Positions 21,156 to 27,800 of a stretch of 64,000 nucleotides of DNA are shown piece after piece (within the stretch, counting starts at the first letter, position 1; every line of letters begins with the position of its first letter). The position numbers and the translations under genes were made by a program. Below the pieces are notes generated by a model. It did not search any database, had not been told where the DNA came from, and saw only the letters and a list, made by a program, of their open reading frames with translations. Location: NCBI GenBank assembly GCA_030657355.1, contig CP131056.1, positions 248,001 through 312,000 of the forward strand, given 5' to 3'. The DNA is from Radicibacter daui (GTDB lineage: Bacteria; Pseudomonadota; Alphaproteobacteria; Radicibacterales; Radicibacteraceae).

Positions 21156-21791
21156 TCAGGTCCGAAGTACTTTGTTGAGGCGCAGGAACTGCAGGAACGG
21201 CAGCAGCGGCATACCGAGAATGGTAAAATGGTCGCCCTGGACGGAGACGAAGAGCTGCGCCCCCAGCCCTTCCAGCTGATAGGCGCCTACCGAGCTGTAG
21301 GCGGCCTCGCCGATCTGGTCCAGATAGGCTTCGATAAAATCATCGCTAAGGCTACGCACCATCAATTTTGCCCGGTCGATGTGGTGCCACAGCCGCTCGC
21401 CATTGCGCATCACAACGGCACAGGAAATCAGCTGGTGCGGTTTGCCGGAGAGTTTGCGCAGGGTTTCGCGCGCTTCTTCCCGGTTGGTCGGTTTGTCGAA
21501 CCACTCGCCATCGCATTCCAGCATCTGGTCGGCGGCCACCGTATAGAGCAACCCGTGCCGGCGGCTTACCCGGGACGCCTTGAGTTCGGCCAGCGCCTCG
21601 GCCACGGCTTCCACCGGCAAACCTTCTGCCCGGAAAGCTTCCTTGATCTCGCTCTCATCGACATTCGGCACGTCGATAACCAGGTCGAGTCCCGCATTTT
21701 CCAGCATCGTGCGCCGGGTGGCACTGCCTGACGCCAGCACCACCGGCTGAGAGGTCAGGAGGGGCGCCGGATCGGGGGAAGCAATGGACAT
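21156..21791 (-). CDS. maf: Maf-family nucleotide pyrophosphatase
   Basis: The 211-residue Maf protein hydrolyses non-canonical or methylated nucleoside triphosphates. Signatures are VLASGSATRRTMLENAGL at the N-terminus, AADQMLECDG, KLSGKPHQLISC and YSSVGAYQLEGLG. The E. coli subtype (YhdE or YceF) cannot be told by eye. It is the first gene left of the putative origin; its start codon lies only about 125 bp from the first DnaA box. Confidence 0.92.
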   Translation of the reverse strand: MSIASPDPAPLLTSQPVVLASGSATRRTMLENAGLDLVIDVPNVDESEIKEAFRAEGLPVEAVAEALAELKASRVSRRHGLLYTVAADQMLECDGEWFDKPTNREEARETLRKLSGKPHQLISCAVVMRNGERLWHHIDRAKLMVRSLSDDFIEAYLDQIGEAAYSSVGAYQLEGLGAQLFVSVQGDHFTILGMPLLPFLQFLRLNKVLRT

Positions 21792-22367
21792 GACTCGTCA
21801 GACTCCAAGGGCCGTTTCGGACTCAGCCGGTGGTGCGGCGGCAGCGGCCAGCTGTCAAGCCGTGACGCCAACAATCGGCATTTTGCAAGGACTCCCACAG
21901 GACCCTGTTCGCAGGATGTGGATAAGTCGTGTGGATGGGGGAATGAAAAAACTTGTCCCCGGGATCTCGAAGATCCTCCCCAGACCTTGCCGCCGGACAA
22001 GGCAAAAACCGTCAGGTCCTGTGAATCATGAGAACGACTCGGAAAGTGAGGGTTTCTGTGGGGGTTATCCACAGCTTTGGCGACTCGCAGGATCCTGACG
22101 AGTCTCGACGAGTCGCCTACAAGATATTCCCAGGTCCTGGTGGACGACTCGCACAGGTAGGAAAAAGCTGTGGATAAGGCTGTGCATGAAACAGGATCCC
22201 CGTTTTCCACAGCTATCTACAAAAGCCACTTCCAAGATCCTTTTAAAAAGAATGTAGGAAATCAGGGATGGACGTGCCGGTCCGGATCGCTACCTTTCGG
22301 CCAGCAGATTTTCCGGCATCCTGACCGGACGGATTTCCATTTCTCTTCAAGGGATCTTCAAGCGACC
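21792..22367. other. oriC: Putative chromosomal replication origin (oriC)
   Basis: This 576-bp non-coding stretch lies between divergent maf and hemE, the position of the origin in Caulobacter crescentus and Rickettsia. It holds three perfect DnaA boxes: TGTGGATAA at 21917-21925 and 22169-22177, and TTATCCACA at 22065-22073. Weaker copies are TTTTCCACA at 22203-22211 and TGTGGATGG at 21930-21938. There are ten GANTC (CcrM-type) sites between 21792 and 22150. An AT-rich stretch that could be the unwinding element lies at 22233-22256. The heptamer CGACTCG/CGAGTCG occurs four times. Gene strand polarity switches here. dnaA itself is not in the window. Confidence 0.88.
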
Positions 22368-23411
22368 ATGCCGGCGGCAAAGAACAAACCCTTCCTGCGC
22401 GTTCTTGCCGGAGAGGATATCGGCCGCAGCCCCTTCTGGTTCATGCGGCAGGCAGGACGTTACCTGCCGGAGTATCGTGAGGTCCGGGCTACCGCTGGCG
22501 GGTTCCTCGAACTTTGTTACCGGCCGGATTTTGCTACCGAAGTGACGCTGCAACCGATCCGCCGTTATGGCATGGATGCGGCGATCCTGTTTTCGGACAT
22601 TCTCGTAGTGCCCCACGCGCTTGGACAGGATGTCGGTTTTACGGTTGGTGAAGGGCCGAAGCTTGAGCCCATCCGTAGCGCGGCGGATCTGGAAAAACTT
22701 TCCATCACCGGCCTGCATGACAAGCTGGCCCCGGTCTATCAGACCGTCACGAACCTGAGCCAGGCCCTGCCGGCAGAAGTTTCGCTGATCGGGTTTGCCG
22801 GCGCTCCCTGGACCGTCGCGACCTACATGGTGGAAGGCGGCGGATCGAAGGAATTTGCCATCGTCAAAAAGATGATGATGGAAGCCCCGCAGCTTTTCGG
22901 GCGGCTGATGGATCTGCTGGTCGAAGCGACGACGGCTTATCTGGCCCGTCAGGTTCGCTGCGGCGCCGAGGTGGTGCAGCTTTTTGACAGCTGGGCCGGC
23001 GCGCTCGACGAAGCGGCCTTCGAGCAGTGGGTTATCGGGCCGACAGTGCGGATCGTCTCTGCGCTCAGGGCTGAATTTCCGGATCTGCCGATCATCGGCT
23101 TTCCGCGTGGTGCCGGCATTCTCTATAAAAAATACGCTTCCGAAACGAAGGTGACGGGCCTCTCCATCGATACCTCGGTGCCGGCTTCCTGGGCGGCGAG
23201 CGAGCTTGCGCCGCTGGCCGTGGTGCAAGGCAACCTCGATCCGGTTTCGCTGGTTGCCGGCGGGGAAGCCATGATGGGCCGTGCCCGTGCCCTGCGCCGG
23301 ACCTTTGGCACCCATCGGCATATCTTCAATCTTGGCCATGGCATTCTGCAGACCACGCCGCCGGACCATGTGGCTGAACTCAGCGACTATCTGCGCTCGG
23401 CCGGGGCCTGA
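22368..23411 (+). CDS. hemE: Uroporphyrinogen decarboxylase
   Basis: HemE removes four carboxyl groups from uroporphyrinogen III to give coproporphyrinogen III in haem synthesis. The 347-residue protein shows the signature [12 protein letters not shown] near the N-terminus, [33 protein letters not shown] and the C-terminal FNLGHGI. The ATG at 22368 gives standard length; earlier in-frame codons run into the origin. It heads the rightward haem cluster hemE-hemH-hemJ. Confidence 0.96.
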
Positions 23412-26710: not shown

Positions 26711-26749
26711 GGCCGCCCCTGCAAGCGCGCGGGGGCGGCCTTTGTTATT
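26711..26749 (+). terminator. Rho-independent terminator after rho
   Basis: GGCCGCCCC (26711-26719) pairs perfectly with GGGGCGGCC (26732-26740) across a 12-base loop, then TTTGTTATT. It lies 25 bp after the rho stop and ahead of the gmd-like gene. Confidence 0.85.
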
Positions 26750-26774
26750 GACCCCCGGCGAAGCGGATGAGCGC

Positions 26775-27800
26775 ATGCCCGTAGCCCTGATTATCGGTAT
26801 TTCCGGCCAGGATGGTGCCTACCTTGCCCGGCTTCTGGTCGACAAAGGTTATTCGGTCATCGGCACGTCGCGAGACCAGGGGCAGGGCCGCTTCGCCAAT
26901 CTTGACCTGCTGCGGGTGCGCGACAAAGTGCGCCTCACCTCAATGGTGACCAACGATTTTCGCAGCATCTACAAGACCTTGAGGGAATGCGATCCGGACG
27001 AGATCTATAATCTCGCTGGCCAGACCTCCGTCGGGCTTTCCTTCGAGCAGCCGATGGAAGCGCATGAGAGCATCAATCTCTCGGTGCTCAACATCCTCGA
27101 ATGCCTGCGGCTGATGGGCAGCAAGGCCAAATTCTATAATGCCGGCTCATCCGAATGTTTCGGCGATACGCCGGATCCGGCAAATGAGGCCTCTGCCTTT
27201 CGTCCGCGCAGCCCTTATGCCACGGCCAAGGCCACCGCCTTCTGGACCGTTGCCAATTATCGCGAAGCCTATGGCATGCCGGCCTGCACCGGCATCCTCT
27301 TCAACCATGAAAGCCCGCTGCGCCCAGGCCATTTCGTTACCCGCAAGATTGTCGATGCGGCGGTGAGGATCGCTGCCGGCTCGCGGGAGCGGCTGTCGCT
27401 GGGAAATATCGACATCCAGCGCGACTGGGGTTGGGCACCGGAATATGTCGAGGCCATCTGGCGCATGATGCAGCAGCCGGTGATGGATGATTATGTGATC
27501 GCCACCGGGGCTAGCCGGCCACTCTCCGATTTTCTGGACCTCGCCTTCCGGGCTGTTGGTCTCAACTGGCAGGATCATACCGATACCCACCCTGCCCTGC
27601 TGCGCCCGCTCGATATTTCCGTCAGCCGCGCAAATCCGGCAAAAGCCGCGGAGAAGCTGGGCTGGAAGGCCGAGGTGGGTTTTGAAGAGCTGGTGGACCG
27701 GCTGGTGAACGCCAGCCGCGATCCGGCCTGGCGGCCGGAGCGGCGGCGCACTCCTAATGGCTGGGGGCCGGGGCCCATCCGGACGGGCGATACGCCATGA
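26775..27800 (+). CDS. gmd: GDP-mannose 4,6-dehydratase-like short-chain dehydrogenase
   Basis: The 341-residue extended-SDR protein converts GDP-mannose to GDP-4-keto-6-deoxymannose in its family, supplying fucose, rhamnose or perosamine for surface glycans. NAD(P)-binding is shown by [12 protein letters not shown], then YNLAGQTSV, the catalytic YATAK motif in [12 protein letters not shown], and [11 protein letters not shown]. The ATG at 26775 starts directly before the nucleotide-binding strand. No other sugar-nucleotide genes are near. The 3' end overlaps the opposite-strand DUF255 gene by 47 bp. Confidence 0.88.

Follow-up and report, generated by a model that had tools for sequence, protein, structure and literature searches.

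A cluster of GANTC sites at the hemE-proximal chromosomal origin of Radicibacter daui and its possible part in origin control

The spacer between maf and hemE on the main chromosome of Radicibacter daui (C1; the assembly comprises 5.06 Mb in two contigs) carries ten GANTC sites, the sequence methylated by CcrM, alongside the features of a replication origin, raising the question of whether methylation state has a part in origin firing. An initial annotation, made from the DNA letters, had offered this reading, and we examined it using the surrounding 64-kb stretch (C1:248001-312000, hereafter the window), the rest of the genome and related origins. Coordinates without a replicon prefix refer to the window. 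The spacer is flanked by two start codons, that of maf at 21791 and that of hemE at 22368, and has a G+C content of 54%, against 64% in its surroundings. The locus is arranged as follows.

21156..21791, minus strand: maf, encoding a Maf-like nucleotide pyrophosphatase; left border of the origin (open reading frame list; NCBIfam PRK02478/maf match)
21792..22367, unstranded: oriC spacer (GC-skew sign change, DnaA boxes, hemE synteny)
21792..21824, unstranded: GANTC sites 1-3 (21792, 21801, 21820), in the putative maf leader; none of GcrA type
21890..21894, unstranded: GANTC site 4 (GACTC)
21917..21925, minus strand: perfect DnaA box, TTATCCACA
22023..22027, unstranded: GANTC site 5 (GAATC)
22035..22151, unstranded: core, with GANTC sites 6-10 (22036, 22082, 22100, 22110, 22146) and four CGASTCG words that conform to YGAKTCG, the context preferred by GcrA
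22065..22073, plus strand: perfect DnaA box, TTATCCACA, 8 bp ahead of GANTC site 7
22169..22177, minus strand: perfect DnaA box, TTATCCACA
22203..22211, plus strand: DnaA-like, near-perfect box, TTTTCCACA, aligned with the terminal TTATCCACA of Azospirillum origins
22241..22253, plus strand: AT-rich tract, TTTTAAAAAGAAT, a candidate unwinding element with no GANTC inside; conserved with Azospirillum (TTTAAAAAGAATAGTG)
22368..23411, plus strand: hemE, encoding uroporphyrinogen decarboxylase; right border of the origin (TIGR01464, 398.7 bits)

The spacer is almost certainly the DnaA-dependent, hemE-proximal oriC of the main chromosome, as the initial annotation had it, since the GC skew and the DnaA boxes agree with the conservation of synteny and of a terminal block. 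The chromosome-wide skew analysis that had been suggested as a check places the change from negative to positive at C1:268-270 kb, at the spacer, with the reverse change at ~2.25 Mb in the sampled stretches. Skew is -0.047 over C1:248-270 kb and +0.017 over 270-290 kb, is positive on the whole from the spacer onward to ~2.25 Mb and negative thereafter, and within the window flips around the spacer. The three perfect DnaA boxes claimed for the spacer were found at the positions listed above, and they are among only 10 perfect TTATCCACA sequences in the 5.06-Mb genome; the AT-rich tract was likewise located, around 22241-22253. Two further groups of words, AGGATCC/CAGGATCCTG and CAGGTCCTG, recur above chance in the spacer (21900-22270), and a search for RNA families in 20-24 kb of the window returned none. 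The gene order differs from that of most relatives, in which ppsR (PF03618) separates maf from the origin; in R. daui the two adjoin directly (21156-22367), so ppsR has been lost or moved. Also near the origin, a gene resembling that of GDP-mannose 4,6-dehydratase, a call based on sequence motifs alone, occupies 26742-27800, with rho on one side and the mnmE-mnmG cluster on the other.

All ten GANTC sites in the list supplied by the annotation were recovered, although the first three, directly before the maf start codon, may belong to the maf leader and lie outside oriC proper. GANTC is otherwise scarce in this DNA. The window contains 63 against 244 expected from shuffles, and in 1.2 Mb sampled from the same chromosome the rate is 0.745/kb, at which ~0.27 would be expected in the 360 bp in which oriC has 10. 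The maximum for any other 360-bp stretch of that 1.2-Mb chromosome sample is 5, a maximum that holds for the sample, which was drawn as 60 stretches of chromosome 1, with 20 of replicon 2 besides. On this chromosome intergenic DNA has 1.16 GANTC per kb and genic DNA 0.70, a ~1.7-fold difference that derives from a crude gene call by longest ORF. The intergenic rate predicts 0.67 GANTC for the spacer rather than 10 (P = 2.7e-9), and the spacer's density of 17/kb is ~15-fold the intergenic density of the genome. The strictest control consists of dinucleotide shuffles of the spacer itself, which preserve its richness in GA and TC; against these the excess shrinks but persists, with a mean of 3.7 GANTC and 10 of 5000 shuffles reaching 10. 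Word counts point in the same direction: the most over-represented 5-mer of the spacer is GACTC (9 against 0.14 expected) and the most over-represented 7-mer is CGACTCG (4 against 0.01), above the words of the DnaA box, and GACGAGTC is seen 3 times against 0.004 expected. As a separate observation, among C1 stretches with more than 62% G+C, GANTC density is 0.98/kb within 400 kb of the origin and 0.64/kb elsewhere, and among samples above the same G+C threshold it shows a weak trend with distance from oriC (rho -0.29, p 0.035) that is absent for three control palindromes.

The genome was searched for ccrM, gcrA and ctrA, as the annotation had recommended, and all three were found. To judge from its sequence, the genome encodes a true CcrM: the gene (C1:1006333) lies beside rnhB, and its product has a RAMA domain (70.8 bits) and matches positions 3-350 of the 350-position NCBIfam CcrM model with 625 bits, below the model's strict cut-off of 830. 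The gcrA gene is at C1:2013211-2013537, with two stretches above cut-off, ctrA is present (413 bits, above cut-off), as is dnaA, and a genome-wide search for SeqA (PF03925) was negative, the E. coli control being detected.

Caulobacter GcrA has been proposed to act at methylated YGAKTCG/YGAKTCK sites (PMC7987155, PMC8725594), and methylated GANTC is bound by GcrA, which it recruits to promoters (PMC3667746); the GcrA of Brevundimonas, a relative of Caulobacter, shows little context preference (PMC7987155). At oriC the YGAKTCG context is found in 4 of the 10 sites, compared with 86 of 894 sampled genome sites (Fisher p = 0.012), and all four lie within the 117 bp of 22035-22151. Three or more such sites per 200 bp occur in the oriC core only, among 1.66 Mb sampled, a sample outside which the ccrM promoter falls. 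That promoter region (C1:1006226-1006308) has four GANTC, all YGAKTCG, in 83 bp ending ~25 bp before the start codon; upstream of dnaA the context is found in 3 of 4 GANTC and upstream of gcrA in 1 of 1. A genome-wide search for CGASTCG with a second GANTC at most 30 bp away returned few places, including oriC and the promoters of ccrM and ftsB (DivIC), together with a divergent promoter of IclR type on C2 and a small number of others. The presence of oriC, ccrM and ftsB among these places suggests that many GANTC clusters are aimed at replication, methylase and division loci, a pattern that is, as seen in the sequence, a correlation of motifs. Two other dense groups were observed: five GANTC within 67 bp where eno meets ftsB (C1:2235566-2235632), upstream of or overlapping the ftsB start, and five at C2:169487-169613, in the promoter region of two divergent genes, one enolase/mandelate-racemase-like and the other for an IclR-type regulator.

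We give a probability of about one half to the reading in which this locus is a DnaA-dependent oriC with an added layer of CcrM/GANTC methylation affecting the binding of DnaA or of GcrA-polymerase, and a part for methylation state in origin firing appears plausible; that the cluster has some function is likely. Under such a scheme, CcrM would methylate the ten oriC sites late in the cycle. As the fork leaves oriC the ten sites would become hemi-methylated together and, because they are replicated first, would remain hemi-methylated longest, marking the origin as just fired. Binding of DnaA and/or GcrA-RNA polymerase over 22035-22151 would then be altered until CcrM restored full methylation. 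Caulobacter produces CcrM only toward the end of the cycle, and with such timing the hemi-methylated state would persist throughout S phase with no sequestration. Since the upstream regions of dnaA, ccrM and gcrA carry the same GcrA-type sites, origin and initiator supply might answer to one methylation clock. Work in other species bears on the scheme in different ways. In Caulobacter methylation was found to be unnecessary for the control of initiation (PMC3973325), although an excess of CcrM leads to extra chromosomes, and in Agrobacterium both hyper- and hypomethylation alter the firing of ori2 (PMC11514494).

Alternatively, the GANTC sites, and chiefly the four CGASTCG in 22035-22151, might act in transcription, as GcrA-responsive elements of sigma70 promoters that serve hemE, maf or a transcript of the origin; initiation would then be touched only via transcription running over the origin, or not at all. 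We regard this as possible, though on the unlikely side. It fits the presence of gcrA, the grouping of four GcrA-type sites in 117 bp that is unique in the 1.66 Mb sampled, the same type of site upstream of ccrM, dnaA and gcrA, and the recruitment of GcrA to promoters by methylated GANTC (PMC3667746). However, a consensus scan of 21700-22500, of a kind that catches alphaproteobacterial promoters poorly, returned no sigma70-like promoter, and ten sites are far above a normal promoter load, the dnaA and ccrM promoters here having four each. Moreover, the origins of relatives are enriched in GANTC but not in its GcrA-type context. That context, considered as a general rule for origins, is ruled out by the relatives (33 of 227 origin sites against 101 of 788 flank sites) and is kept for this genome only.

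Wider comparison used 73 origin spacers, the window's own included, each lying between hemE and either maf or ppsR (whose product is PF03618), taken from HemE-anchored loci of named genomes and from class-level relatives; among the relatives searched no genome belonged to the same genus, family or order. Pooled over the 73 origins, GANTC density is 7.3/kb; elsewhere in these loci it is 1.6/kb in intergenic DNA, again by crude longest-ORF calling, and 1.5/kb in coding DNA. The origin is denser than its surroundings in 33 of 41 HemE clusters (Wilcoxon p = 1.6e-7). At origins the excess over shuffles is larger for GANTC than for any other of the 16 gapped palindromes (O/E 1.71, z 8), while inside hemE GANTC stands at one third of expectation. 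The density of individual origins ranges from 0 to 25/kb. Counts of 0 were obtained in Emcibacteraceae, Sneathiella and some Kordiimonadales, the origins of Kordiimonadales and Emcibacteraceae having none or few, and the nearest sampled relative (L036) has a single origin GANTC. The highest counts, 10-12 per spacer, belong to Azospirillum lipoferum, A. oryzae, Azospirillum sp. TSH64 and Azospirillum sp. B506, and origins with 8-12 occur also in culturable Azospirillum and Novispirillum.

Presence of ccrM was rejected as the cause of these differences, CcrM being encoded in 22 of 25 genomes with GANTC-poor origins (0-2.5/kb) and in 22 of 24 with GANTC-rich ones. A shared ancestral cluster was rejected also: the positions of the sites are unconserved beyond close species, and the trait is unclustered on a HemE tree made by a quick method, its 19 changes showing no clear difference from the 20.6 obtained with shuffled labels. 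What is conserved over long distances is the terminal DnaA box with the TTTAAAAAGAATAGTG-like block. Because GANTC-poor relatives carry CcrM and the trait is scattered on the tree, GANTC crowding is dispensable for a hemE-type origin, and enrichment in 33 of 41 clusters, combined with the range of 0-25/kb, indicates a general tendency that is optional in each lineage. As judged from these sequences, origin GANTC is thus a recurrent, optional layer.

Lability of this kind also suits an explanation without function, in which selection acts against GANTC elsewhere, extra CcrM targets being costly, and a long, lower-GC, non-coding spacer escapes, accumulating sites by drift and local duplication. 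We consider this improbable. The genome-wide depletion of GANTC, its ~1.7-fold higher frequency in intergenic than in genic DNA here, its variable density over the tree, the empty or sparse origins of Kordiimonadales and Emcibacteraceae, and the rise of origin density with spacer GC (rho 0.59) are all compatible with it. Other intergenic DNA should nevertheless be equally free to accumulate sites, yet it has 1.2/kb here and 1.6/kb in relatives, as against 17 and 7.3/kb at the origin, and the count in the spacer is above its own dinucleotide expectation (10 of 5000 shuffles). Close Azospirillum species provide another point against drift. Across four origins the free N of the sites varies at 9.5%, whereas the fixed letters are changed in 6 of 504 cells, compared with a background of 5.4%; the pairs are not independent and the signal vanishes at greater distance, but the sparing of the fixed letters hints at selection on the Azospirillum sites. 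It is highly improbable that another origin-binding protein (IHF/HU-like or other) recognizes CGASTCG and the neighboring GANTC, with the overlap with CcrM sites being incidental, for although CGACTCG and GACGAGTC rank, apart from the DnaA box, as the most over-represented long words in the spacer, where AGGATCC is also repeated, six of the ten sites lie outside the CGASTCG context and relatives stay enriched in GANTC with different flanks and N letters.

Returning to a methylation layer added to a DnaA-dependent origin, the initial annotation had gone further in proposing that methylation rather than CtrA might be the dominant cell-cycle input, given that it saw no full TTAA-N7-TTAA site. The observation held for the spacer and for the whole 64-kb window, with 15 such sites elsewhere in the genome, but the conclusion did not, since a full CtrA site is missing from 72 of 73 related origins regardless of GANTC density, GANTC-free ones included. 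In the Rhodospirillales studied, growth does not require CtrA (PMC8116508), and these two facts together make the missing CtrA boxes a lineage default. A trade-off between GANTC and CtrA sites is ruled out, CtrA sites being missing nearly everywhere, and motif density by itself is no basis for ranking the cell-cycle inputs.

Several known systems share parts of this arrangement. Like the R. daui spacer, Cori of Caulobacter crescentus has hemE beside the origin, DnaA boxes, CcrM and GcrA in the genome and, as given where PMC3973325 cites Shaheen et al. 2009, several GANTC in the origin. It differs in having CtrA sites, no full one being present here, and the R. daui origin stands apart through ten GANTC within 360 bp and through maf directly at its left border. 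In E. coli, oriC has 11 GATC and the dnaA promoter 8 (PMC10073500), compared with 10 GANTC at oriC and 4 upstream of dnaA here; by analogy, an oriC crowded with sites for an orphan methylase, and suited to marking a newly fired origin, resembles the use of Dam and GATC in E. coli, although the methylase here is CcrM and SeqA is absent from the genome. At repABC origins of Rhizobiales, of which Agrobacterium ori2 is one, GANTC is likewise above expectation, and CcrM and GcrA influence firing (PMC11514494, PMC6090056), whereas the main origin here is DnaA-dependent and the genome is without repC. The hemE-proximal origins of Azospirillum (L044, L045, L048, L053) also have 10-12 GANTC per ~480-bp spacer and the conserved terminal DnaA box and TTTAAAAAGAATAGTG-like block; their single GANTC sites, however, differ from those of the window in position and in flanks, and ppsR rather than maf borders the Azospirillum origins.

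The GANTC sites of the Caulobacter origin have been known for years, and, methylation being unnecessary for initiation there, the question was then left. New here are the measurement of an origin-specific enrichment over many lineages, together with its lability, and the GcrA-type sites common to oriC, ccrM, dnaA and gcrA. A bolder extension, which we hold to be unlikely, is that several alphaproteobacterial lineages independently built a CcrM origin clock comparable to Dam/SeqA, in which dense GANTC at oriC and GcrA-type sites upstream of dnaA, ccrM and gcrA would be combined with hemi-methylation read by GcrA or another reader, blocking or licensing re-initiation without CtrA. The GANTC-rich origins of Azospirillum and Novispirillum, being without full CtrA sites, may suit experiments better than that of Caulobacter, and the GANTC-free or GANTC-poor origins of Sneathiella and Kordiimonas offer natural controls.

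On the second replicon, C2 (0.80 Mb), GC skew changes sign at the contig ends, and the origin region, C2:798973-801189, contains seven GANTC and a single perfect DnaA box along with at least 10 iterons (GGCAANTTCACTCGCRCC-like). A search for repC (PF03428) found no match in either replicon, and C2 is probably a RepA-like iteron replicon rather than a repABC one. Beside the iterons the origin region encodes a 372-aa protein without a Pfam match that has 34% identity to uncharacterized plasmid proteins of Roseomonas mucosa and is related to sequences on many conjugative enterobacterial plasmids.
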